Shown here: positions 5,163-19,852 of the stretch, in pieces
Layout of the letters: each line of letters begins with the position of its first letter
How positions within the stretch are numbered: the stretch's first letter is position 1
Origin: Deltaproteobacteria bacterium
GTDB lineage: Bacteria; Desulfobacterota; Syntrophia; Syntrophales; Smithellaceae
Length of the DNA stretch: 34,737 bases
Assembly: GCA_025361065.1 (NCBI GenBank)
Contig: JANYAY010000153.1
Span: 1-34,737 of the forward strand
Reading direction: 5' to 3'
Notes under the pieces: generated by a model
The model's database searches: none
Seen by the model: only the letters and a program-made list of their open reading frames with translations
Told to the model about the DNA's origin: nothing
Made by a program: the position numbers and the translations under genes

Positions 5163-6395
5163 ATGGCAAAAGGGAATAATTCTGGATACAAAAAGATGAT
5201 TGACAAGCAATACCAGGATTTGATGAAGCGCTGTCAAGTTCACATGGAACAACTCGAAAAAGATTTGCCTGAGCCGAAAGAAGATTTACATGAGCTGTTA
5301 AAGGATCGTGGTTTTACCAGACGAGATTTCATTAAATGGACTTCGGTAACGACAGCCGCCTTGATGCTGCCGCCGATTTTTCGCCCCATGGTGGCAAAGG
5401 CAGCGGAAAATTTCAGCCGCCTTCCCATAGTTTGGCTCCATTTCGCCGAATGCACCGGCTGCAGCGAAGCCTTTTTACGCTCTTCTTATCCTAATGTTGA
5501 TGATATTCTTCTGGATACCATTTCGTTGGAATATCACGAAACATTGATGGCTGCTTCGGGGTATCAGGCGGAACAGAATCTGGAAAAAGCTATACATGAT
5601 TTTGCGGGCAAGTTTATCTGTGTCATCGAAGGTGCATTGCCGCGTGGCTTGAATGGAAAGTATTTGACACTCGGCCCGAAGGGGAAAACCGGTATTGAAG
5701 TTGCCAAAGAAGTTACGTCCAAGGCGGCAGCTGTCGTCTGCATCGGCTCCTGCTCGGCATTTGGCAATATTCAGGCAGCGAAACCTAATCCGACTGATGC
5801 CGTAGGAATAAGTCAGGCCATTGGAATTAAAACTGTTAATATCGCCGGCTGTCCTCCTAATGCCGTTAATTTTACCGGGACCCTGCTGCATTATCTCCTG
5901 TTTGGTTCCCTGCCGCCTCTTGATTCTTTAGGCCGGCCGCTGTGGGCTTATGAAAAACGTATTCATGATTTCTGCGAAAGAAGACCGCATTATGACGCCG
6001 CTGAATTTGTTGAAGAGTGGGGTGATGACGGGGCGAAAAAAGGATGGTGCTTATATAAAGTCGGCTGTAAAGGCCCCTATACTTATGCCAATTGCAGCAA
6101 AGTCCGTTTTAATGACGGCATTTCCTGGCCGGTTATGGCCGGTCACGGGTGCATTGGTTGTACCGAGCCGGGATTCTGGGATACCATGGCGCCACTAGAA
6201 AAACCGATTGACGAAAAAACTTATGGTGGTGGTGAAAGAACAGTCGATAATATCGGTGTCATTTTAACAGGTGCAGCTGTAGCCGGAGTTGCAGTTCATG
6301 CCGCAGCGAGTGCAATCAGGCATAAAGGGAAAGATAAGGATTCATGTTGTCACAATGATGACCGGATGAACACTCAGGAGGAAAAACATGACTAA
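5163..6395 (+). CDS. hyaA: [NiFe] hydrogenase small subunit, Tat-exported, membrane-anchored (group 1)
   Basis: This 410-residue electron-transfer subunit of a periplasm-facing hydrogenase relays electrons from the Ni-Fe site through three Fe-S clusters. The twin-arginine signal TRRDFIKWT is at residues 52-60, after an unusually long, charged N-terminal extension of about 50 residues. Proximal cluster ligands are in HFAECTGCSEAF (C97, C100) and IGSCSAFG; distal cluster ligands are RIHDFC...GWCLYKVGCKGP; medial ligands are NCSKVRFNDG...HGCIGC. Glycine or alanine-type residues occupy the two positions where oxygen-tolerant hydrogenases carry extra cysteines, so a standard oxygen-sensitive cluster is expected. 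A C-terminal membrane anchor lies at about 363-385, then a short tail with a CC pair. ATG 5163 is chosen for AAGGAG six bases upstream. It overlaps the large-subunit gene by 8 bp. Confidence 0.96.
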   Translation: MAKGNNSGYKKMIDKQYQDLMKRCQVHMEQLEKDLPEPKEDLHELLKDRGFTRRDFIKWTSVTTAALMLPPIFRPMVAKAAENFSRLPIVWLHFAECTGCSEAFLRSSYPNVDDILLDTISLEYHETLMAASGYQAEQNLEKAIHDFAGKFICVIEGALPRGLNGKYLTLGPKGKTGIEVAKEVTSKAAAVVCIGSCSAFGNIQAAKPNPTDAVGISQAIGIKTVNIAGCPPNAVNFTGTLLHYLLFGSLPPLDSLGRPLWAYEKRIHDFCERRPHYDAAEFVEEWGDDGAKKGWCLYKVGCKGPYTYANCSKVRFNDGISWPVMAGHGCIGCTEPGFWDTMAPLEKPIDEKTYGGGERTVDNIGVILTGAAVAGVAVHAAASAIRHKGKDKDSCCHNDDRMNTQEEKHD

Positions 6396-8064
6396 AAGAA
6401 TTATTGTCGATCCGATCACCAGGATTGAAGGACATTTAAGAATTGAAGTGGAAGTTGATGATAAAAACGTAATTACAGACGCCTGGAGCAGCATCACTCT
6501 CTGGCGCGGCATTGAGACAATATTGAAAGGACGCGATCCGCGCGATGCCGGCCTGATTGTGCAGCGTTTTTGCGGAGTATGCACTTACGTTCATTATGAA
6601 GCCAGCATTTTAGCCTGCGAGGATGCCTTTGGGATTAAACCGCCGCCTAATGCCCGCATTATTAGAAATTTGATCGGCGCCTCGCTTTACCTGACTGACC
6701 ATGTCATGCATTTTTATCATCTGCATGGCCTCGATTGGGTCGATGTTGTCAGCGCCCTTTCGGCAGATCCGAAAAAAGCTGTGGACATGGCAAAAGCATA
6801 CAGCCCCAATCCCTACAACTGTTCGGCAACTCACTATAAGGCAGTTCAGGAAAGGCTTACCAAATTTGTCAAATCCGGCCGCCTTGGTCCTTTTGCTAAT
6901 GCTTACTGGGGTAACCCATCCTACAAATTGCCGCCGGAGGCAAACCTGATCATTCTTTCGCATTACCTCGATGCGCTGGCTATTTCCAAAGTCGGCGCCC
7001 AGATGATGGCTATTTTCGGCGGCAAGAATCCCCATCCGCAAAGCCTGGTTGTCGGCGGTGTAACTTCCGTTATGGATGCCCTTGATGCTGAACGCCTGGG
7101 TCAGTATTTATTCCGCTTTAAGGAAATGAAGAATTTTGTAGAGACGGCCTACATACCCGATGTTCTTCTTGCCGCGGCCTATTATAAGGATGAAGGCTTG
7201 AATGGAGTTGGCGGCGGCGTGAAAAACTATCTTTCCTACGGTGGATTTCCGCTGGACGATGATTGGAATAATCTGATGTTCCCCAGAGGAATTGTTAAAA
7301 ACAGAAATCTGGCGAAGCCCTTAAAACTGGATGAAGATAAGATTACCGAAGAAGCAACCCATTCCTGGTATAAGGGTTCCGAGCCTCAACATCCGTACAA
7401 AGGAACAACTGATCCCGAATACACCGGCTATGACAAAGATGGTCACGTTAAAGGAAACGAAAAATATACCTGGTGTAAAGCTCCGCGTTACGATGGTCAA
7501 CCTTATGAAGTTGGTCCCCTGGCCCGTTTCGTTGTTGGTTATGCTCAAGGGAATAAGGCCATCAAATCACTGGTGGACTCGACACTGAAAACTACCGGAC
7601 TTCCGGCAACTGTTCTCTTTTCGACTCTCGGCCGCACGGCTGCCCGTGCACTGGAAACCAAGCTTGTCGCCGACAACACGGAAGGATGGGTAAATGAACT
7701 CATCGGCAATATCAAGAAAGGTGATACGAGAACTTGGACAAGGTGTGACGTGCCCAAAAAACCGGCTCAGGGCCGCGGTATGACCGAACCGCCGCGCGGC
7801 GCTCTCGGCCACTGGATCAAGATCGAAAACGGAGTCATTGCCAATTACCAGGCTGTTGTTCCCTCAACCTGGAACTGTTCGCCGCGTGACAAAAAAGGCC
7901 TGCGCGGTCCTTATGAAGAATCTCTCATCGGAACAAAACTGGCCAATGTCAATCAGCCACTGGAAATTATCCGAACGATCCATTCGTTTGATCCCTGTAT
8001 GGCTTGTGCAGTGCATATTATCGATCCCAAAACCAATGAGATCAAAAAATATAAAGTGGCTTAA
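6388..8064 (+). CDS. hyaB: [NiFe] hydrogenase large (catalytic) subunit
   Basis: This 558-residue subunit carries the Ni-Fe(CN)2CO site that oxidises or evolves H2. The N-terminal motif is RFCGVCTYVH (C62, C65) and the C-terminal motif DPCMACAVH (C537, C540), giving all four metal-binding cysteines. RIEGHL (12-17) is also typical. Cleavage after H543 would remove a 15-residue C-terminal peptide, the job of the maturation protease encoded downstream. It is co-exported with the Tat-bearing small subunit and has no signal of its own. The start codon lies inside the end of the small-subunit gene and is preceded by AGGAGG, indicating coupled translation. The length is typical of group 1 membrane-bound enzymes. 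Confidence 0.97.
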   Translation: MTKRIIVDPITRIEGHLRIEVEVDDKNVITDAWSSITLWRGIETILKGRDPRDAGLIVQRFCGVCTYVHYEASILACEDAFGIKPPPNARIIRNLIGASLYLTDHVMHFYHLHGLDWVDVVSALSADPKKAVDMAKAYSPNPYNCSATHYKAVQERLTKFVKSGRLGPFANAYWGNPSYKLPPEANLIILSHYLDALAISKVGAQMMAIFGGKNPHPQSLVVGGVTSVMDALDAERLGQYLFRFKEMKNFVETAYIPDVLLAAAYYKDEGLNGVGGGVKNYLSYGGFPLDDDWNNLMFPRGIVKNRNLAKPLKLDEDKITEEATHSWYKGSEPQHPYKGTTDPEYTGYDKDGHVKGNEKYTWCKAPRYDGQPYEVGPLARFVVGYAQGNKAIKSLVDSTLKTTGLPATVLFSTLGRTAARALETKLVADNTEGWVNELIGNIKKGDTRTWTRCDVPKKPAQGRGMTEPPRGALGHWIKIENGVIANYQAVVPSTWNCSPRDKKGLRGPYEESLIGTKLANVNQPLEIIRTIHSFDPCMACAVHIIDPKTNEIKKYKVA

Positions 8065-8821: not shown

Positions 8822-9319
8822 ATGGAAGATAAAAATTTTGTTTCTATTTTAGGAATAGGTAATGTCCTGCTTGAGGATGAGGGCTTTGGCGTTCATTTTG
8901 TCCGCTGGATATCTGAACGCTATTCTGCTACTGAGGAAGTAAGAATAATCGATGGCGGAACGCTGGGATATGCTCTGCTGGATATTATCAGCAGCTGCCG
9001 GAACCTCATTGTCATTGATGTTCTCAAAGTGGATGACGCGCCCGGATCGCTTTATCGTTTTGACAAGCAGGAAATGGAAATTCATCTGCCTCCTCCCACC
9101 TCTGCTCATGAAGTTACTTTCTCTGACGTTCTGTTTAAAGTAGAACTTATGGATGAATCGCCGGAAGTGGTTTTTCTGTGCATCGTACCGGCGAAATACG
9201 GCGATATGGATATGGAAATGACACCCCTGATGCGGGAAAAATTCCCGGCTATGGAAGAGCTGCTGCTGGCGGAACTCTCCCGGTTAAATGTGAAACTGGA
9301 AGAAATTACGCATGCATGA
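8822..9319 (+). CDS. hyaD: Hydrogenase maturation endopeptidase (HyaD/HycI family)
   Basis: This 165-residue nickel-dependent protease clips the C-terminal peptide from the hydrogenase large subunit after metal insertion. The family opening ILGIGNVLLEDEGFGVHF is present. Probable nickel ligands are E20 (DEGFG), D44 (RIIDGGT) and H96 (SAHEVTFSDVL). An ATG at 8792 in the same frame lies inside the terminator stem and would add ten residues without homology, so ATG 8822 is preferred, although no clear ribosome binding site precedes it. It overlaps hypA by 8 bp. Its natural substrate is the DPCMACAVH-bearing large subunit encoded upstream. Confidence 0.93.
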   Translation: MEDKNFVSILGIGNVLLEDEGFGVHFVRWISERYSATEEVRIIDGGTLGYALLDIISSCRNLIVIDVLKVDDAPGSLYRFDKQEMEIHLPPPTSAHEVTFSDVLFKVELMDESPEVVFLCIVPAKYGDMDMEMTPLMREKFPAMEELLLAELSRLNVKLEEITHA

Positions 9320-9656
9320 ATTGTATCTGGCTGAAGCAGTTTTGAATATTGTGCAGGAATATGCTGCAAAACAACAATTTAGAAAAGTTAATTCCATCTT
9401 GTTGTCTTTTGGTCGTCTTTCCTGTATTGAGCCGAAATCATTGCAATTTGCTTTTGAAGTGCAGGCCAGGGAAACGCCGGCGGAAAACGCCGCATTGCAG
9501 TTTAAAATTCTTCCGTCAGTTATTCATTGCTTTTCCTGCGGCAGGGATTTAGAACTGGATATATATGAAGGAACTTGTCCCGAGTGCAAGGGTGAGGAAG
9601 TCATACTTGTCGGGGGCACGGAAGAGATGCAAATTATAGAAATGGATGTAGATTAG
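9312..9656 (+). CDS. hypA: Hydrogenase nickel-insertion chaperone HypA
   Basis: This 114-residue cytoplasmic protein hands nickel to the large subunit with HypB. It starts MHE, whose His2 is the nickel ligand in the family, and has a zinc site built from two CxxC pairs (HCFSCGRDLE and GTCPECKG) in the C-terminal half. The length is standard. The ATG overlaps the protease gene by 8 bp, implying translational coupling. It is the first of the contiguous hypA-C-D-B-F series. Confidence 0.96.
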   Translation: MHELYLAEAVLNIVQEYAAKQQFRKVNSILLSFGRLSCIEPKSLQFAFEVQARETPAENAALQFKILPSVIHCFSCGRDLELDIYEGTCPECKGEEVILVGGTEEMQIIEMDVD

Positions 9657-9665
9657 GATTTTTTT

Positions 9666-9896
9666 ATGTGCATTGGCTTTCCCGGAAAAATTATTTCGAT
9701 TGATAAAGACAACTACGCGATTATCGACATCAGCGGCACGAAACGAGAAGTTTGTCTCGATATAGTGGATGAACCGGTTCAGATAGGCGACTATGTGATC
9801 ACTCACGCGGGCTTTGCCATTCACAAAATCGATGTTGAACTGGCCCGGGAAAAACTCGCTATGCTAAAAGAGCTGATCGAAAATGAAATATATTGA
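9666..9896 (+). CDS. hypC: Hydrogenase assembly chaperone HypC
   Basis: This 76-residue chaperone works with HypD to build and deliver the Fe(CN)2CO moiety. The obligatory start MCIGFPGKI keeps Cys2, which binds iron after Met removal. GDYVITHAGFAIHKID is the second family signature. Spacing to hypA is 9 bp, and the end overlaps hypD by 14 bp. Confidence 0.97.
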   Translation: MCIGFPGKIISIDKDNYAIIDISGTKREVCLDIVDEPVQIGDYVITHAGFAIHKIDVELAREKLAMLKELIENEIY

Positions 9897-10971
9897 TGAA
9901 TATAGAGACCCTGCTTTGGTGCAGGGACTGCTGACGAAGATCAGGAAATCAGTGGGCCGTATTAATCATCCGGTTACAATAATGGAAATTTGCGGCAGCC
10001 ATACCTGCGCCATCGGCCGTTTCGGCATTAAAAAAATGCTGCCCGATAATATCAACTTGGTTTCCGGACCGGGTTGTCCGGTTTGTGTGACCTCTGCCCG
10101 GGATGTTGATATAGCTCTGTATTTAGCCTCGCAGGAGAATGTGATTTTTGCCACTTTTGGCGATATGCTCCGGGTTCCCGGATCAAACGGCAACAGTTTG
10201 CAGAAGCAAAGAGCCGAAGGCTGCGATGTCCGTATTGTCTCTTCCGCTGATGAGTGCATTGATCTCGCGCAAAATTTTCCGCAAAAAGAAATTATTCTGA
10301 TGGGTATCGGCTTTGAAACGACGACACCTACTGTTGCCGTCACTGTAGAGATCTGTCGAAAAAGAGGAATAAAAAACTTTTCGGTTTTTTCCGTGCATAA
10401 GATAGTTCCTCCGGCTATTCATGCCCTGATTACTGATCCCGGTTTGAATATTGATGGTTTCCTCTGCCCGGGGCATGTCAGTACGATGATCGGCTCCAAT
10501 GCTTATTCAATGATTCCCGCCGCCTCGTGTGCGGCCGTAATTACCGGTTTTGAGCCGGTGGATATTCTGGAAGGCATCTGGATGATTCTTACGCAAATCG
10601 GCAATAAAAAATTTGAGGTTGCTATTCAATATAGCCGCGGCGTGAAACCCGAAGGCAACCTCCTCGCCATGAAATTAATCGAATCCGTATTTAAAACAGA
10701 AACTGTGGAATGGCGTGGCATTGGCCTTATTACGGAGAGTGGTCTTGTTTTTCGGAAGGCTTATGCCGCCTATGATACGCTCGCAAAATTCACCGTGCCG
10801 GATATCAAATCCCTAGAGCTCAAAGGTTGTGGCTGCGGAGACATACTCCGGGGGATAAAATCACCCGATCAGTGCGCCTTGTTTAGAAAAGTCTGTACGC
10901 CGCAAAACCCCATAGGCCCCTGCATGGTTTCGAGTGAGGGGAGTTGTTCAACATACTATAAGTACTATTAA
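9883..10971 (+). CDS. hypD: Hydrogenase Fe-cyanide assembly protein HypD
   Basis: This 362-residue Fe-S protein is the scaffold on which cyanide and CO ligands are attached to iron. The conserved cysteine motifs are intact: MEICGSHTCAIGRFG, SGPGCPVCVT, FLCPGHVSTMIG, and the C-terminal GCGCGDILRG...DQCALFRKVCTPQNPIGPCMVSSEGSC that holds the [4Fe-4S] cluster. The start overlaps hypC by 14 bp, indicating coupled expression. Length and domain order are standard. Confidence 0.97.
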   Translation: MKYIDEYRDPALVQGLLTKIRKSVGRINHPVTIMEICGSHTCAIGRFGIKKMLPDNINLVSGPGCPVCVTSARDVDIALYLASQENVIFATFGDMLRVPGSNGNSLQKQRAEGCDVRIVSSADECIDLAQNFPQKEIILMGIGFETTTPTVAVTVEICRKRGIKNFSVFSVHKIVPPAIHALITDPGLNIDGFLCPGHVSTMIGSNAYSMIPAASCAAVITGFEPVDILEGIWMILTQIGNKKFEVAIQYSRGVKPEGNLLAMKLIESVFKTETVEWRGIGLITESGLVFRKAYAAYDTLAKFTVPDIKSLELKGCGCGDILRGIKSPDQCALFRKVCTPQNPIGPCMVSSEGSCSTYYKYY

Positions 10972-10981
10972 GGGAGGAAAA

Positions 10982-11637
10982 GTGAAGGTAACCGTCGTAA
11001 AAAATGTGCTCGATGCCAATGACAGAATTGCCGCTGAAAACCGGGCATTGTTTGATAAAAACGGGGTTTATGTAATTAATCTTATGAGCTCACCTGGCGC
11101 GGGAAAACGACGCTGGTGGAAAAAACAATTATGGCGCTGCAAGACAGATACCGGATCGCTGTGATTGAAGGCGATATTCAGGATACTTATGATGCCGACC
11201 GCATTGCCGCGCTTAACATTCCCGTGGTGCAGATTAATACGGGTGGCGCCTGCCACATCGACGGCAACATGATCCGGGAGGCCTTGCCTGCTTTTGATCT
11301 TGCTGTGATTGATCTGCTTATTTGCGAAAATGTCGGCAATCTGGTTTGCCCGGCCGAATTTAAAATCGGCGAAAATACCAAGGTTATGATTCTCAGCGCT
11401 CCGGAAGGCGCCGACAAGCCGGCAAAATACCCGTTGATATTTCAGGAGTCGGCGGTCATGGTTATCAATAAGATTGACCTGTTTCCGTATGTTGATTTTG
11501 ATTTGAATAAAGCCAGGCGTGACGCCCTTTCGATTAATCGTGATCTGCAAATATTTGAAGTATCCTGTAAGACCGGCGCGGGTCTTGATGATTGGATTTC
11601 GTGGCTTACGGATCGCATAGATGCTTTCAAAAAATGA
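10982..11637 (+). pseudogene. hypB: hypB, nickel-inserting GTPase, interrupted by a -1 frameshift in the P-loop
   Basis: HypB is the GTPase that loads nickel with HypA. Translation from GTG 10982 (GGGAGG just upstream) runs MKVTVVKNVLD...VINLMSSPGAGK and then leaves frame, stopping at about 11164. The rest of the protein is intact in another frame from the P-loop onward: TTLVEKT, the metal-binding GGACHIDG, NVGNLVCP, the guanine-specificity motif NKID, ending at 11637. Adding one A to the A-run 11104-11107 restores a 218-residue HypB with a perfect GAGKTT. No His-rich nickel store is present at the N-terminus. It could be a sequencing or assembly error, a real mutation, or programmed frameshifting: the site reads G GGA AAA, a -1 slippery pattern that would yield exactly GAGKTT. 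The gene is essential for nickel hydrogenases, so an error or a recoding event is more likely than loss. Confidence 0.9.
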
Positions 11638-11640
11638 CAA

Positions 11641-11756
11641 CCTCGTAAATAATCCGGATACTGCGTTGCGCTTCGGCCTTCGGCGTTGCGGCGTATGCGA
11701 AAAATACGCCTCACTTCTCAGGCCTTGCGCGCCTTGTCTGCGGCCTATTTACGAGG
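11641..11756. mobile_element. Palindromic repeat element between hypB and hypF
   Basis: This 116-bp element is bounded by 11-bp perfect inverted repeats, CCTCGTAAATA (11641-11651) and its complement (11746-11756). Further partial pairing outside them reaches into the hypB stop codon. The interior is GC-rich with several GCGTTGCG/CGCC-type sub-repeats and an internal GGCGTAT/ATACGCC pairing (about 11690-11709). No reading frame of interest is present. It resembles non-autonomous, MITE-type or REP-type repeats, and its ends share CTCGTAAA with the element at 28462-28613. Confidence 0.7.
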
Positions 11757-11777
11757 CCGTCGATAAATGTTGATGTT

Positions 11778-14219
11778 ATGACTTTTTACGAATCCAATAG
11801 AAATAAGGATGAGATCAAAAGAGTACGGTATCTGTTTTCCGGCATTGTTCAGGGTGTTGGTTTCCGGCCGTTTATTTATCGGCAGGCAATCCAGAACAAG
11901 CTGGGCGGTTTTGTGCAGAATCGTCCGGATGGAGTATTGGTGGAAGTAGAGGGCGCCGCTTCCGCTGTTGATTCATTTCTCGCCGGAGTTCGTGGCAACC
12001 TGCCGCCACTGGCCGATGTTACAAATATATCCGCCCTCGATATTGGAACAAAGCTCGATTGTGTCTTTCGGATTATTCCCAGCGATATTCGCGGTGATGG
12101 AGACGTTCACATCGCACCGGATGTGGCTGTTTGTCCGGAATGCCTCACAGAATTTTTCAATCCGCATGATCGCCGTTACCGGTATCCACTTATCAACTGC
12201 ACCAATTGTGGCCCCCGGCTGACGATTATTAAAGCAATTCCCTATGACCGCATTAATACATCCATGGCCTGTTTCCCTTTGTGTCCGCAATGCCAGTCTG
12301 AATATGAAAATCCTGCCGACAGGCGGTTTCATGCCGAACCTGATGCCTGCCCTGTGTGCGGTCCCCAAATGCAAATTCTCACAGGTGAAGGCAATGCAAT
12401 GGACACTGTTGATCCCATAGGGACTGCCATAAGCTTGCTCCAGGAGGGCAAAGTTTTAGCCATCAAGGGACTGGGCGGCTTTCATTTGGCGGTCGATGCT
12501 GCCAATGGTGAAGCAGTCGAGAGATTGCGGTCACGCAAATTCCGGGAAGAAAAACCGCTGGCGATCATGGTCCGGAATCTGGAAACTGTAAAACAGGTAG
12601 GTGTACTCAGTGATGAGGAAGAAAGGCTCCTTACTTCCCCGCAAAGGCCGATTGTTCTCATAAAGAAAAAAGGCAATAATATGATTTCCGCGCAGGTGGC
12701 GCCGGGTGTTCCCAATTTCGGTGTGATGCTTCCCTATACACCGCTGCATTATCTTCTGCTGGAAAATATTGCCGCACTTGTGATGACCAGCGCCAATCAA
12801 ATCGATGAGCCGATTTGCATCACCAATCGTGAAGCTGTTACCCGGTTGAAAGGAATCGCCGATTATTTCCTTGTCCATAATCGTGATATTCTGGTGCGCT
12901 GTGACGATTCCATCGTTATGATGGCCGGAAAGAAGCAACAGATATTACGGCGATCGCGCGGCTTCGTTCCCCGGCCGGTCGAACTGGCGGAATCTTTCCC
13001 TGATGTGCTGGCTCTCGGTCCGCAGATGAAAGCAACACAATGCATTTTGAAAGGCAGGTTTGCCTTTTTGAGTCCTCATATAGGGGATCTGGAAACGCCG
13101 CAGGCCCGGGATTTTTTTTCCGAGAGCCTGACTCTAATGAAAAAAATCACTGAATCCGATCCCATCGTAATTGCCTGTGATTATCATCCTGCTTACTATT
13201 CAACAAAAGTTGCTGCCGAACTCGACGGCGTAAGAGTTATTCCCGTTCAGCATCATCATGCCCATATTGTGAGTTGTATGGCGGAGAATCTGATTTCCGG
13301 AGATGTGATCGGTCTGGCTATGGATGGTACCGGCTTCGGTCTGGACGGCAATGCCTGGGGCGGAGAATTCCTGGTAGCCAGTGAAACGGAATTTAAGCGT
13401 CTGGGCCATCTGAAGTATTTTGTTTTGCCCGGTGGACAAAAAGCGATCCATGAGCCCTGGCGTATTGCAGCAAGTCTGCTGAAAAGCGCCTACGGCCCGT
13501 CCTGGCTGGAAATTGCCGCACAACTCGACATCATGCCAACCGGATTTGACAGCAAAGTACTCGACAAAATAATTGAAAACAAAATCAATAGTCCGCTTAC
13601 TTCGGGATTGGGCAGATTGTTTGATGGAGTGGCGGCGATTATGGGCTTGCGCCGGACTGTGAGTTTCGAAGGGCAGGCGGCGCTGGAGCTCGAAGGTCAG
13701 GTAACCGAAACTTCCGGTGTACCCTTTCCTTTTGAGATTCAGCGCGATGCGGAGGGATGTTTTATCCTGGATATGTCGGCGGCTATTCGATCTATTGTTG
13801 AGGAAGTATTGCAGGGGAAAAGCAAAAATGACATTTCCTCTTCTTTCCATTCGACGCTGGCCGCGGCTTTTGCCGCTATGGCCAATAAAATATTAATTGA
13901 TTCAAATTTATCTGCAAATCCGTCATTCCGGCGAAGGCCGGCATCCAGTGATTCCTGGATGCCGGATCATAACCTAAATGTCACGAGAGTCCGGCAGGAC
14001 AATACCAGTGCAAAGATTTTAAGAAAAGAAAAAGGAGTACTCAACCGTGTGGCGTTAAGCGGCGGCTGTTTTCAAAACAGAGTTCTTCTGGAAAGAAGTG
14101 TGGCCGAGTTGGAAAAAGCTGGCTTCACGGTTTATTGCCACAAGCAGGTGCCGGCCAATGACGGCGGTGTCTCTTTAGGACAGGCTGTCATCGCCGGAGC
14201 GATTGTAAAGATATCCTGA
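11778..14219 (+). CDS. hypF: Carbamoyltransferase HypF, with a repeat-derived in-frame insertion
   Basis: HypF makes the thiocyanate precursor of the iron cyanide ligands from carbamoyl phosphate, transferring it to the HypE C-terminus. This 813-residue protein has the full domain order: acylphosphatase-like (VQGVGFRPFIYRQA, residues about 29-42), two zinc-finger pairs (CPECLTEFF, CTNCGPR, CFPLCPQC, CPVCGP), a YrdC-like domain (LGGFHLAVDA, KPLAIMVR) and a Kae1-like domain (VQHHHAHIVSCMAEN, MDGTGFGLDGNAWGGEF, ALSGGCFQNR). Between the last two Kae1 motifs, about 40 extra residues (roughly 711-753) appear. Part is encoded by a dispersed palindromic repeat at 13921-13966 that stays in frame. Start ATG 11778 has no clear ribosome binding site. 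Normally hypE would follow, but here an unrelated block intervenes. Confidence 0.95.
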   Translation: MTFYESNRNKDEIKRVRYLFSGIVQGVGFRPFIYRQAIQNKLGGFVQNRPDGVLVEVEGAASAVDSFLAGVRGNLPPLADVTNISALDIGTKLDCVFRIIPSDIRGDGDVHIAPDVAVCPECLTEFFNPHDRRYRYPLINCTNCGPRLTIIKAIPYDRINTSMACFPLCPQCQSEYENPADRRFHAEPDACPVCGPQMQILTGEGNAMDTVDPIGTAISLLQEGKVLAIKGLGGFHLAVDAANGEAVERLRSRKFREEKPLAIMVRNLETVKQVGVLSDEEERLLTSPQRPIVLIKKKGNNMISAQVAPGVPNFGVMLPYTPLHYLLLENIAALVMTSANQIDEPICITNREAVTRLKGIADYFLVHNRDILVRCDDSIVMMAGKKQQILRRSRGFVPRPVELAESFPDVLALGPQMKATQCILKGRFAFLSPHIGDLETPQARDFFSESLTLMKKITESDPIVIACDYHPAYYSTKVAAELDGVRVIPVQHHHAHIVSCMAENLISGDVIGLAMDGTGFGLDGNAWGGEFLVASETEFKRLGHLKYFVLPGGQKAIHEPWRIAASLLKSAYGPSWLEIAAQLDIMPTGFDSKVLDKIIENKINSPLTSGLGRLFDGVAAIMGLRRTVSFEGQAALELEGQVTETSGVPFPFEIQRDAEGCFILDMSAAIRSIVEEVLQGKSKNDISSSFHSTLAAAFAAMANKILIDSNLSANPSFRRRPASSDSWMPDHNLNVTRVRQDNTSAKILRKEKGVLNRVALSGGCFQNRVLLERSVAELEKAGFTVYCHKQVPANDGGVSLGQAVIAGAIVKIS
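13921..13966. repeat. Dispersed TCATTCCGG palindromic repeat inside the hypF coding region
   Basis: It starts CGTCATTCCGGCG and contains an 11-bp perfect stem (13938-13948 with 13955-13965, CCGGCATCCAG and complement, 6-nt loop). The same core occurs in intergenic repeats at 3390, 18611, 19933 and about 28499. It is translated in frame as part of HypF (SFRRRPASSDSWMPD). Confidence 0.85.
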
Positions 14220-14586: not shown

Positions 14587-15702
14587 ATGAAGATAAAACA
14601 CTTTGAAGTAGTTGGATTCCTCGGAAGAGGATCCTCGATAACAATGCCGTTTAACGAGGACATTAATATTCTTACTGGACGGAATGGCTCCGGAAAGACC
14701 AATGTTTTAAAGTTACTTTGGTATATTCTTAGCGGCAATATTCATCTAGCACTAAGGGAAGTAAACTTCAAAAAAGCCACATTGTTGACATCAGAATATG
14801 AATGCACAGTATATCGGCTATCTTCCAATGAATGTCGCGTAGATTGGACAGTCAATGACGAAAAAACAGTATTCGAGGATGTAATGGATGATGAAGGGAA
14901 TGAAATCTTCTGTGCGGAGGATCAAGCAAATGATCTACTTTCAGGAATCGGATCATCTATATTTCTTCCAACATTCAGACGTATTGAAGGCGGATTTTCG
15001 ACAGAGGCGCGGAATCGAAATACTGTTACCAGAGCAAGAGGAGACATCGAGGAATCATTGATCTCTTTGTCAAAGAAACTCACAAATGGTTCTCATATAT
15101 TTGTTTCGTCACTTAGCACGAGTGATATTGTGACATTGTTGGTGCGGCAATATACCGATCTTTCAGAAGAATATAACCAGGTTCAGCAAAATACATCACA
15201 AGATATTATCGCAAAAATTAAGGATTTTAAGAAGGATATAGTTGGAGAGGACAAAATTGCTGAGGTCGCTAATTTAGTATTTGATGAGATTCGTGAACAA
15301 ATTGAAGGGATGGAGAAGTCTAGAGAAATCATTATGAAACCAATGGAGGCTATTAAAGCTCAAGTGTCGAATCTCTTCAAACATTCCGGAATCAAGCTAA
15401 CGAAATCACTCAGCTTTGGGGATGCTGCCAATGCTGTTAACTCAGATGCTCTATCAGCAGGCGAGAAGCAAATGCTAAGTTTTATCTCCTATAATGCTTT
15501 TTATAAGAATGCAGTTATCATAATTGACGAGCCGGAATTGAGCCTACATGTTGACTGGCAGCGCCAGCTATTTCCAATTCTGCGGGCCCAGCAGTCTTCA
15601 AATCAATTCGTTATTGCTACGCACTCACCCTTCATATATAGCAAGTACCCAGACAAAGAGATTCAAATCGATGCAGACCGCGGTGATGAGGCACGCAATT
15701 AA
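14587..15702 (+). CDS. AAA15/OLD-like ATPase of a PARIS-like defence pair (AriA-like)
   Basis: This 371-residue SMC/ABC-type ATPase has Walker A GRNGSGKTN (residues 31-39) just after an OLD-like N-terminus (IKHFEVVGFLGRG), a helical middle (about 190-260), an ABC-like signature LSAGEKQMLSF (about 289-299), Walker B IIIDEPELSLHVDW (about 314-327) and a sensor IATHSPFIY. The next gene, encoding a DUF4435/TOPRIM-like protein, starts on the base after this stop codon. That pairing is the architecture of PARIS (AriA-AriB), where the ATPase holds the TOPRIM effector until a phage anti-restriction trigger is sensed. The assignment rests on architecture; other AAA/DUF4435 pairs exist, and this ATPase is on the short side. 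AAGGA precedes the ATG. Codon use is AT-richer than in hypF. Confidence 0.82.
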   Translation: MKIKHFEVVGFLGRGSSITMPFNEDINILTGRNGSGKTNVLKLLWYILSGNIHLALREVNFKKATLLTSEYECTVYRLSSNECRVDWTVNDEKTVFEDVMDDEGNEIFCAEDQANDLLSGIGSSIFLPTFRRIEGGFSTEARNRNTVTRARGDIEESLISLSKKLTNGSHIFVSSLSTSDIVTLLVRQYTDLSEEYNQVQQNTSQDIIAKIKDFKKDIVGEDKIAEVANLVFDEIREQIEGMEKSREIIMKPMEAIKAQVSNLFKHSGIKLTKSLSFGDAANAVNSDALSAGEKQMLSFISYNAFYKNAVIIIDEPELSLHVDWQRQLFPILRAQQSSNQFVIATHSPFIYSKYPDKEIQIDADRGDEARN

Positions 15703-16467
15703 ATGAAATTGTCCCAACACAAACCCGATCTATCAATAGATGAAATTATTGCGTTGTTAAAGAAGACTTCACTCCCAACAATAATAGTTGAAGGAACCGA
15801 CGATATAATCGTTTACAGGCACATGGAGGAGAGTCTTTCAGCAATCGGCATTTCAGTTCTTCCCGTTGGTGGACGTAAAAATGTTCTTGGTGTTTTCTCT
15901 CGCCGAGGAGATTTACCCAAGGCTGTAACGATTGCATTCATCGCCGATCAGGATGTCTGGGTTCATATAGGAATTCCAGGTGAGTATATTGACGACCACC
16001 TTATATTCACAAGCGGTTATTCAATAGAGAACGATATTTACATTGATGGTGAGTTGTGGAAGCTTCTAATAAAGGATGAACTGACAAAATTCGAGGCGGA
16101 GGTAAGTGAGTTCCTCCGTTGGTACGCACTGGCACTTTCTAGACATCTTCAAGATCCTAGCAATAACATAAAATTACATCCAAACCATGTATTGAATCCT
16201 GACCAGCAACCTTCACTTTTGTCTCTTAGGTCTGGTGAGTCATATCCAAATGAACTATATGAAGCACTATCCAAAAACTACCAGAAGAATCTGCGGGGCA
16301 AATCGCTTATGGCTCTTCTTGTCCGCCATACTAGCTACAAAGGCCGTGAGCCGCATCATAACGATAAAGCATTGATGGAGATTGTTGCTAGCAGGCCGGG
16401 CCCTCTACTGGAAGCAATTTATTCTCGGGTTAAGGCATTATATTCTGATGCTAACCCCACACACTGA
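15703..16467 (+). CDS. DUF4435 (TOPRIM-like) effector of a PARIS-like defence pair (AriB-like)
   Basis: This 254-residue protein has the DUF4435 layout: a TOPRIM-type acidic start TIIVEGTDDIIVYRHM (catalytic-type Glu30), a strand-end acidic pair FIADQDVW (D82, D84), and the family block GYSIENDIYIDGELW (105-119). TOPRIM folds with E and DxD bind metal for nucleic-acid cleavage, and in PARIS the DUF4435 partner is a toxic nuclease released on phage sensing. The ATG directly abuts the ATPase stop codon, so the two are surely co-translated. The C-terminal half is helical and unrecognised. No terminator is obvious after it. The activity here is inferred from the family. Confidence 0.82.
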   Translation: MKLSQHKPDLSIDEIIALLKKTSLPTIIVEGTDDIIVYRHMEESLSAIGISVLPVGGRKNVLGVFSRRGDLPKAVTIAFIADQDVWVHIGIPGEYIDDHLIFTSGYSIENDIYIDGELWKLLIKDELTKFEAEVSEFLRWYALALSRHLQDPSNNIKLHPNHVLNPDQQPSLLSLRSGESYPNELYEALSKNYQKNLRGKSLMALLVRHTSYKGREPHHNDKALMEIVASRPGPLLEAIYSRVKALYSDANPTH

Positions 16468-16934
16468 ATAGGGGGAGCATCAAATTGGTGGAAGCATCAA
16501 TCAGTGCCGTGGTTGGCCAAAATAAGTACGCAGGTTAAGACAATTGGGTTATTGCTACAATTTAAAAGGGAGTCCGTGATATTTCTTAGGCTTGAAATCA
16601 TTTCTTTGGTGGATGAAGTCCACATAATGTCCAGTATCTGACAATGCCTGATAAAACCGGCCTTTATTTTTTACGCATCATTCATCTCTTTCCATTTGAA
16701 CTGTTGAATATCCAAGAAAAACTCAAGAATCACACTTTCAGGAAGAAAGCAGTGACTCGTAGAAAAAACGTAGAAAAAACGGGACAGGTTCAATTTTATA
16801 CAAAACCTGCCCGGCTTGATTCGGGCTGTTTACTAAGTCAGAGAGGAGAGAGGGGGAGCACTATAAACTTATTAACCTATTCAGTTATTAAACAATAAAT
16901 TGACAATGGTACCATTTAGTAGTACTCTATTTAC
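16468..16934 (+). other. Intergenic region between the defence pair and hicAB
   Basis: No credible gene was seen; an 84-codon frame at 16644-16898 looks random. A short tandem repeat TAGAAAAAACG occurs twice at about 16760-16781. It is followed by a bulged hairpin GGGACAGGTT/AACCTGCCC at about 16782-16813. Such GGGACAGGTT sequences often accompany REP-associated or transposase remnants (weak inference). The hicAB promoter and operator occupy the end of the region. Confidence 0.4.
16900..16928 (+). promoter_or_regulatory. hicAB promoter with palindromic operator
   Basis: The -35 TTGACA (16900-16905), a 17-bp spacer and -10 TACTCT (16923-16928) are seen. A perfect 12-bp palindrome AATGGTACCATT (16905-16916) fills the spacer, a natural operator for HicB autorepression. 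Transcription would begin at about 16935, on the GTG start of the toxin gene, suggesting a leaderless mRNA. Confidence 0.65.
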
Positions 16935-17189
16935 GTGAACAAACGACAACAAAAAACATTAATAGATATTTTTAAGAATCCAGTCCAATCCAATATTGTC
17001 TGGAATGATATTGAGTTTCTATTGATCGCACTGGGAGCAAAAATTACAGAAGGAAATGGTTCCCGAGTGCGAATAAAACTTAATGACGTTCGAGCCGTTT
17101 TTCATAGACCGCACCCGCAAAAGGAGAAAGATAAGGGTGTGATTATTTCGCTAAGACGCTTTTTAGAAAATGCGGGATTAAAGGGGTAA
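16935..17189 (+). CDS. hicA: HicA-like toxin of a type II toxin-antitoxin system
   Basis: This 84-residue protein matches the HicA (YcfA-like) mRNA-interferase family with a small dsRBD-like fold: WNDIEFLLIALGAKITEGNG (23-42), then GSRVRIKLNDVRAVFHRPHP (42-61) and the closing ISLRRFLENAGLKG. The usual catalytic position GSHH reads GSRV here, as in a HicA subgroup with the histidines in HRPHP, so catalysis may use those. The start is GTG with no ribosome binding site; the predicted transcript starts on this codon, which fits leaderless translation. It is immediately followed by the antitoxin gene (5 bp apart). Confidence 0.85.
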   Translation: MNKRQQKTLIDIFKNPVQSNIVWNDIEFLLIALGAKITEGNGSRVRIKLNDVRAVFHRPHPQKEKDKGVIISLRRFLENAGLKG

Positions 17190-17194
17190 AAACA

Positions 17195-17524
17195 ATGGAA
17201 TATAAGGGATACATCGGTGTTGTTGAATTTGATGATAAAGCAAAAATATTTCATGGAGATGTTATTAACACCAGAGATGTAATTACATTTCAAGGTAAAA
17301 CTGTTGATGAAATTGAAAGTGCTTTTCATGATTCAATAGATGACTATATCGCTTGGTGTGAACAGGATGGCGTTAATCCGGAAAAGCCTTATTCCGGAAA
17401 GTTTAATCTTCGTTTGTCACCGAGTCTTCATAAAGAAATAGCTGTAACTGCAAAAAAAATGAAGATGTCAATAAATTCTTTTGTCGAAAAGGCACTAATT
17501 GATGAAATCAATGTGCACAGGTGA
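17195..17524 (+). CDS. hicB: HicB-like antitoxin
   Basis: This 109-residue protein has the partial RNase-H-like HicB fold (YKGYIGVVEFDDKAKIFHGDVINTRDVITFQGKTVDEIESAFHDSIDDYIAWCE, residues 3-56) and a C-terminal ribbon-helix-helix DNA-binding segment (GKFNLRLSPSLHKEIAVTAKKMKMSINSFVEKAL). It neutralises the HicA toxin encoded just upstream and probably represses the promoter at the palindrome 16905-16916. AAGGGG precedes the ATG with good spacing, so the antitoxin has a strong ribosome binding site while the toxin has none, a common way to keep antitoxin in excess. Confidence 0.92.
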   Translation: MEYKGYIGVVEFDDKAKIFHGDVINTRDVITFQGKTVDEIESAFHDSIDDYIAWCEQDGVNPEKPYSGKFNLRLSPSLHKEIAVTAKKMKMSINSFVEKALIDEINVHR

Positions 17525-17557
17525 AAGGCAAGAGGTGACCCCTTGTAGTAATGTTAC

Positions 17558-17580
17558 GGTTCAACCTGCAAGGTTGAACC
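17558..17580. repeat. Perfect 9-bp hairpin between hicB and nfo
   Basis: GGTTCAACC (17558-17566) and its complement (17572-17580) enclose a 5-nt loop. The genes on both sides converge, so it may stop transcription in both directions, although no T-run follows. Confidence 0.5.
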
Positions 17581-17632
17581 AGCGAAAAGGGGCAGGCGAA
17601 GCGCGGCTAAATCGGCTTGTTACCAATATTGC

Positions 17633-18505
17633 TTATTCCGCGACCGACCTCAGCCACCTAATCTCTTCGGCCCAGGCCTTCTCATCGGGGGTTTCCAGAA
17701 TTAGCGGTATTCCGTCGAACCGGTGGTCTTTCATAATTCTTTCAAACACGTCGGCTCCCAGCGATCCTTTTCCCAGGAGTTCATGGCGGTCAACGCGGGA
17801 ACCCAACTCCTTTTTCGTATCATTGAGGTGCATCCCTTTCAGATAAGAAAAACCGATGACCGAATGGAAATGCTTCCAGGTTTGTTGATAGCCGTTGACA
17901 GATTTCAAATCGTAACCAGCCGAATAGGCATGGCAGGTATCGATACAGACTCCGACGCGCACTTTGTCTTCCACAAGGGAAATAATTGCTGCGAGCTGTT
18001 CTAAGGTATAGCCCAGATTGGTTCCCTGGCCGGCTGTGTTTTCAAGCACGGCGGTCACTCCATTGGTTTTATCCAGTACCCGGTTGATGCTCTCGGCAAC
18101 TGTTTTTAAGGCGCTATCTGCACTCGCTAAATTCAAATGGCTTCCCGGATGAAAATTCAGTCGGTCGAGGCCAAGTTGTTCGCAGCGCTTCATCTCCTCA
18201 AGAAAGGCTGTCCGGGACTTTTCCAGGGCGGATTTTTCTTGATGCCCCAGATTGATCAGATAGCTGTCGTGCGGCAGTATCTGGGCAGGAGTAAAACCAA
18301 GTTTCTCGCAGGAATTGCGGAATTTACGGATCGATTCTTTTTCCAGCGGTTTGGCCGTCCATTGCCGCTGGTTTTTGGTAAACAAAGCAAAGGCATTGGC
18401 TCCGATTGCAGCCGCATTGACCGGCGCATTTTCGACACCGCCTGATGCGCTGACGTGGGCTCCGATATACTTTCTGTTGTTTGTGGAAAAAGACTCTTTC
18501 TTCAT
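17633..18505 (-). CDS. nfo: Endonuclease IV (AP endonuclease)
   Basis: This 290-residue Zn-dependent apurinic/apyrimidinic endonuclease works in base-excision repair. The TIM-barrel metal-binding motifs are intact: [11 protein letters not shown] (residues 13-23), [76 protein letters not shown] and the final LILETPDE. The length is typical. The start at 18505 has no good ribosome binding site, but a TTGACA...TATAGC promoter ends seven bases before the ATG, so the mRNA may be leaderless. It lies antiparallel to the hyp genes, between the toxin-antitoxin pair and hypE. Confidence 0.96.
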
Positions 18506-18688: not shown

Positions 18689-18838
18689 ACTAGGTTGATC
18701 ATCCGTTTGGCTATGATTTAGAAATGTAGTGAGATCAATAATGATTGCAACTGGTCAGATCAATTAAATTGTTGTAAATAATCGGCCAAAATATGATAGG
18801 TGAATGTAAATAATACAGACCATCTTAAAGGCAGTGCT

Positions 18839-19852
18839 ATGACAAAATACGACAAAATCCTGCTGGAACATGGCAGTGGTGGGTTGCTCAGCAATGAGCT
18901 GATTGCCCATATGTTTCTCCCTCACTTTAGCAATTCCTACCTGGATCGCATGGAAGACAGCGCGGTGCTGACTATCGGCAACCAGAAGTTTTGTTTCACG
19001 ACGGATTCTTATGTGGTCAGCCCGGTCTTTTTCCCCGGCGGCGATATCGGTTCGCTCGCCGTGCACGGGACAGTGAATGACCTGGCGGTATGCGGTGGAA
19101 AGCCGTTGTACATGAGTGCCGGATATATTCTGGAAGAGGGATTTTCCTTTGCCTCGCTTGAAAAAATTGTTCAGTCCATGGCGGATGCCGCAAAGCACGC
19201 CGGGATAAAAATAGTTACCGGTGATACGAAGGTTGTTTCCCGTGGTGCGGTTGACGGCATTTTTATTAACACGTCCGGCATCGGTATTATCGAATATGCA
19301 GGGTCTTTGTCGGTAAAGAGCATTGCGCCCGGCGATGTGATAATCCTCAACGGCACAATCGGCGACCATGGCGCCGCCATCATGCAAGCCAGAGAGAATC
19401 TGGGATTGGAAACGGACATTATCTCCGATTCCGCACCTCTTTCCGGACTCATAGCGGAAATCTTAAATGTAAGCTCTGATATCCACTGCATGCGCGATGC
19501 CACCCGCGGAGGCTTGGGGGCAATTCTCGCGGAAATTGCCCAAAATGCCAATATCCGCATCAATATTTCCGAGCAGTATATTCCGGTTGGCGAAAATGTC
19601 CGGGGTATTTGTGAAATACTGGGGCTTGATCCGCTTTTCCTAGCCAATGAAGGCAAGATGGTCTTATTTTGTCCCGCCGCAGAAGCTTCCAAAGTTCTTG
19701 CGGTTATGAAAGAACATGAATTCGGCAGGAATGCCGCCGTAATCGGCAATGTTGGGGAAAGCAGTCAGGGGCGGGTTGTGCTCAAAACTTCCATTGGCGG
19801 GGAAAGAATTGTTGATTTGCCGACGGGGGAACTGGTGCCGCGCATCTGCTGA
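18839..19852 (+). CDS. hypE: Hydrogenase maturation protein HypE (carbamoyl dehydratase)
   Basis: This 337-residue protein dehydrates the carbamoyl group placed on its C-terminal cysteine by HypF, making the thiocyanate that supplies cyanide ligands. The N-terminus has LLEHGSGGLLSNELI. FTTDSYVVSPVFFPGGDIGSLAVHGTVNDLAVCGG is the PurM-like ATP-binding signature. The protein ends LVPRIC, the required PRIC tail with terminal Cys. A GTG at 18800 would add 13 residues, but ATG 18839 has AAAGG seven bases upstream and matches the family start. It is separated from hypF by over 4.6 kb, yet intact, so it must have its own promoter. Confidence 0.96.
   Translation: MTKYDKILLEHGSGGLLSNELIAHMFLPHFSNSYLDRMEDSAVLTIGNQKFCFTTDSYVVSPVFFPGGDIGSLAVHGTVNDLAVCGGKPLYMSAGYILEEGFSFASLEKIVQSMADAAKHAGIKIVTGDTKVVSRGAVDGIFINTSGIGIIEYAGSLSVKSIAPGDVIILNGTIGDHGAAIMQARENLGLETDIISDSAPLSGLIAEILNVSSDIHCMRDATRGGLGAILAEIAQNANIRINISEQYIPVGENVRGICEILGLDPLFLANEGKMVLFCPAAEASKVLAVMKEHEFGRNAAVIGNVGESSQGRVVLKTSIGGERIVDLPTGELVPRIC

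Follow-up and report, generated by a model that had tools for sequence, protein, structure and literature searches.

HypB is the GTPase of hydrogenase nickel incorporation (TIGR00073, SIMIBI/G3E class), and according to the accessible part of one report its hydrolysis of GTP is necessary for hydrogenase maturation, and an addition of nickel can relieve defects in this process (PMC3262836). The authors of GeneTack class a lone frame break in a gene that is otherwise constrained as an error or a recent indel, for singleton breaks validated by BLASTp they expect sequencing errors rather than genuine indels, and the known cases of programmed transcriptional slippage lie on A-runs longer than seven (PMC3711429). 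At the level of translation, a systematic study in E. coli found G_GG.A_AA.A among the good eukaryotic motifs that prove inefficient in this bacterium (PMC4066793), and in E. coli rpoB the spontaneous suppression of a new mutation on a heptamer reaches up to 5% (PMC7022156). In the accessible portions of the literature that names hypB together with frameshifting, no described case of a programmed frameshift in this gene was found.

Results

The window, by which we mean the whole stretch of 34,737 nucleotides that was analyzed, contains genes for the small and large subunits of a NiFe hydrogenase, a cytochrome b-like gene, a maturation protease, hypA, hypD, hypB and hypF, with hypE following after an insert. 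The large subunit gene (6388-8064, PF00374) and hypD (9883-10971, TIGR00075) are the only ones in the genome, and they share the plus strand with hypA (9312-9656, TIGR00100) and with hypF (11778-14219, TIGR00143) and hypE (18800-19852, TIGR02124), both intact. On the same strand hypB spans 10982-11637, starting from a GTG at 10982 that is preceded by AGGGAGG, and its place beside hypA, hypD, hypF, hypE, the hydrogenase protease gene and the NiFe hydrogenase genes is the one expected of a HypB.

From this GTG to the AAA at 11105-11107 the 0-frame translation is VKVTVVKNVLDANDRIAAENRALFDKNGVYVINLMSSPGAGK, running from VKVTVVKNVL to the P-loop Gly-Lys codons in MSSPGAGK (10982-11107). The codons at the break are GCG (11099-11101), GGA (11102-11104), AAA (11105-11107) and CGA (11108-11110), and GGGAAAA at 11101-11107 stands in X_XXY_YYZ register relative to this frame. 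The heptamer includes an A4 run (11104-11107) that has one base fewer than in all relatives, among them two genomes aligned to it, G003 and G008. Without a shift, translation continues into the out-of-frame tail RRWWKKQLWRCKTDTGSL (11108-11164) and ends at TGA 11162-11164 after 60 amino acids. The -1 frame from 11107 reads TTLVEKTIMALQ... and continues, from TTLVEKT to FKK, without further fault to the stop codon at 11635-11637; in a frame-restored HypB the peptide across the junction would span LMSSPGAGKTTLVEK. As assembled, hypB is thus a one-base loss. These frames bear out what the initial annotation had described, namely a break by one base at the P-loop, a G GGA AAA heptamer in the same register, and a -1 slip that yields the exact HypB P-loop and leaves the remaining protein undamaged. 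The truncated product that it described likewise follows from the unshifted frame, with the stop 18 codons past the heptamer and not about 19.

The two parts align to successive portions of the TIGR00073 profile (4-54 and 42-212), and the -1-frame part alone scores 205-217 bits against a curated cut-off of 121.2. With its GAGKTT P-loop, TGGACH, ENVGNLVCP and NKID the gene resembles HypB throughout, and all downstream nucleotide-binding and metal motifs are present. The difference lies in the one missing P-loop base: no single frame encodes the whole protein as assembled, and whereas all 90 relatives read the P-loop GxGKT[TS] in one frame with the remaining G domain, this gene does not.

The closest genome compared for this locus has 87% DNA identity and is a congener rather than a member of the same species (G003; contig CAIVQG010000009 of AlinenLipids_bin-4002, taken as G003:C9). 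Its hypB aligns with exactly one gap, of a single base at 11104, and the alignment to G008 also has exactly one, of a single base at 11107. Comparison with G003 revealed no other stop or indel in hypB beyond the missing base, and no frame-breaking gaps in the hydrogenase, hypA, hypD and hypE genes. Of the codons that differ between the two hypB genes, 59 are synonymous and 13 nonsynonymous, and by branch two nonsynonymous changes fall on that of the window genome and five on that of G003. By these counts the rest of the gene is under normal constraint, and the gene shows no decay.

We further surveyed the hypB site in whole-genome loci and in those of the GTDB contig collection, taking copies that contain both anchors, the P-loop and, downstream of it, ENxGNLV; 90 of these are distinct. 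The relatives are Syntrophaceae/Smithellaceae-type genomes, and the named ones are nearly all MAGs. A first, narrower pattern had left outside the window itself, one copy truncated where its contig stops and another with an in-frame GGGKTS. This is the comparison by which the initial annotation proposed to recognize a simple error, and as evidenced by all 90 other copies, nearest relatives included, the site is read in a single frame. Ten of the 90 have the identical G_GGA_AAA in frame, followed by one further A. Nearly every full-length match to hypB in 99 related genomes is a single open frame. Note that one other break was seen among these genomes, in a hypB (G094:C103:1629-2208) that is split elsewhere, between profile positions 121 and 140, and this would fit sporadic accidents in assembled genomes rather than a conserved signal.

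The heptamer was also placed in its genomic context. A sample of 423 ORFs from this genome, none overlapping another (518 kb), contains 1,173 in-frame X_XXY_YYZ heptamers (2.26 per kb, in 376 of the ORFs), of which 56 are G_GGA_AAA itself. Among 45 Walker A motifs in the sampled frames, five are written with G_GGA_AA[A/G]. When the loss of a single base was simulated in homopolymers of at least 5, an overlapping heptamer in register remained in 286 of 3,289 cases (9%). Because GCG (or TCG) GGA AAA ACN is the normal spelling of this P-loop, the heptamer occurs in intact relatives, and once one A is lost from GCG GGA AAA ACN, G_GGA_AAA arises automatically. It is thus the ordinary codon choice for the P-loop Gly-Lys, at a site that is not special. 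The exact fit to a slippery site, to which the initial annotation had drawn attention, holds as far as the register goes, but as a coincidence it weighs less, the motif being common in this genome.

Beyond the heptamer in register at 11101-11107, the marks of a programmed site were not found. Folding of the downstream RNA (11108-11187) was no more stable than that of shuffled sequences (z 0.23), and a wider stretch (11060-11200) likewise showed no unusual structure (z -1.31), both in a fold without pseudoknots. No stimulatory structure 5-8 nt downstream was seen in this fold, nor a purine-rich, SD-like or AGGAG-like element in the sequence 8-14 nt upstream of the heptamer, and the frame transition is conserved in 0 of 90 relatives. 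A rescue by re-start inside the gene, at GTG 11116, was rejected, as its product would be without the P-loop lysine. Rfam and tRNA scans of the window gave no matches, and a plasmid search gave distant hypB matches only.

The genome is a 3.95-Mb draft in 186 contigs, 97% complete with 3.9% contamination. Its general soundness was assessed by tblastn of G003 ORFs (619 kb of G003) against about 709 kb of this genome, which covered some 146 shared genes and 110 kb of alignment. The only convincing break in this genome was that in hypB; since the break was the reason for looking at this gene, an unbiased count has to leave it out and stands at 0 in about 145. Another three candidates, on contig C79, were rejected: they reflect an ECF transporter/bioY-like cluster that is degraded in G003 (L170, G003:C30, about 17,000-18,200), whereas the ORFs here are whole (L192 10471-12637). 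Longer A/T runs near the break are intact in coding sequence (A6 at 11120 and 10999, A7 at 10030), so that no homopolymer bias of the platform is evident; together with the lack of other breaks among the roughly 146 genes, this indicates that the assembly is not error-ridden.

The same genome holds a second, intact hypB of 223 amino acids beside a second hypA on contig C163, which brings its total to two hypB. The pair lies on the minus strand (L120, G000:C163, 2963-4176) with no other hyp genes adjoining. This second HypB belongs to another subtype, GSGKTSLIL, and similar second copies are found in many genomes of the order; it possibly serves a nickel enzyme other than hydrogenase.

Two further features of the cluster were observed. 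Between hypB and hypF lies an interspersed repeat of about 125 bases (11640-11765). This genome has 18 matches to it, and several genomes of the same genus, the same family and the same order have 9-16; in G008 a copy stands upstream of hypB instead, and the repeat looks like a mobile, REP/MITE-like element. The insert that parts hypE from hypF (14587-18505), two genes that are close together in G003, carries an AAA-type ATPase with a second protein, maybe its partner (14587-16467), a HicA/HicB-like pair (16935-17524) and, on the minus strand, an endonuclease IV-like gene (17633-18505), all named from reading their translations.

Discussion

The most likely cause of the break, to which we assign a probability of roughly 60%, is an error made in sequencing or assembling this metagenome-type draft. 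An otherwise normal hypB would accidentally lack one base in the A-run of its P-loop codons; the real gene of the organism would be a single open frame for an ordinary HypB GTPase, and this protein would deliver nickel to the single NiFe hydrogenase of the same cluster. The reads should then carry the extra base at the A-run. A missing A was also the explanation preferred in the initial annotation, and it fits the evidence, including the 90 of 90 relatives in frame. The soundness of the rest of the assembly neither requires nor excludes an isolated error of this kind, and the constraint on hypB together with the few changes on its branch speaks for an event that is either very recent or artefactual.

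Ranked second to an error, and put forward tentatively, is a real and recent one-base deletion in the strain or population, by which hypB would have become a fresh null allele with a 60-aa fragment as its product. The low rate of frame breaks elsewhere in the assembly is in line with it, as is the intact second hypB with its adjacent hypA on C163. Because of this pair the loss of the window hypB need not be lethal, which weakens the argument of the initial annotation from an essential maturation gene. The second HypB might substitute for the broken one, or the deletion is possibly tolerated where nickel is sufficient, since such maturation defects are, in the accessible part of PMC3262836, relievable by nickel supplementation. 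Nevertheless, decay is seen nowhere beyond the single base, the second protein differs in subtype (GSGKTSLIL) and may serve another nickel enzyme, and the cluster, intact in all other respects, contains the only hypD and the only NiFe large subunit of the genome, so that selection to keep it would be expected. If the base is truly lost, the protein made without a shift stops within the P-loop region and cannot act as a GTPase.

Recoding of any kind at hypB seems very unlikely to us. A base truly absent, with enough slippage at G_GGA_AAA for some full-length HypB, would make a recently arisen leaky frameshift allele, and this too has only a very slim chance of being correct. Slimmer still is that of programmed -1 ribosomal frameshifting at the heptamer, with full-length HypB as the outcome and the 60-aa product as a regulatory by-product; it would imply a hypB that requires recoding, and hydrogenase maturation controlled at the level of translation. 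The heptamer does have the right register, the slip does restore the exact P-loop, and the downstream frame does look constrained, but the two-frame arrangement recurs in none of the 90 relatives, the same G_GGA_AAA sits in frame in intact ones, such heptamers are commonplace in this genome, the motif is reported as inefficient in E. coli (PMC4066793), the downstream folding is no better than that of shuffles and the upstream SD-like element is absent at 8-14 nt. Programmed frameshifting, which the initial annotation had thought worth excluding, thus gained neither comparative nor structural support. Transcriptional slippage, by which part of the hypB mRNA would regain its frame, is hardly credible at all: the site is an A-run and one A gained would suffice, but the run has four bases only. 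For practical purposes the locus is best annotated as a hypB broken by one base, and it gives no ground for calling the organism hydrogenase-maturation-deficient.

With dnaX and the IS3-family transposases, the classical examples of programmed -1 frameshifting, the locus shares an X_XXY_YYZ heptamer at the frame transition; it differs from them as a singleton with a broken frame that is not conserved, no stimulator seen and a heptamer reported as inefficient in E. coli. The metal-chelatase subunits chlD/bchD resemble it in having a frameshift in a metal-insertion gene, which in their case is translational, but according to the accessible part of PMC9227772 they constitute a described family of frameshift genes, whereas the break in hypB is absent from all relatives. 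From the 'H-pseudo/Error' singletons of GeneTack (PMC3711429) we noted no difference: like these, the window hypB has a homology-validated break, confined to a single genome, in a gene that is otherwise intact.
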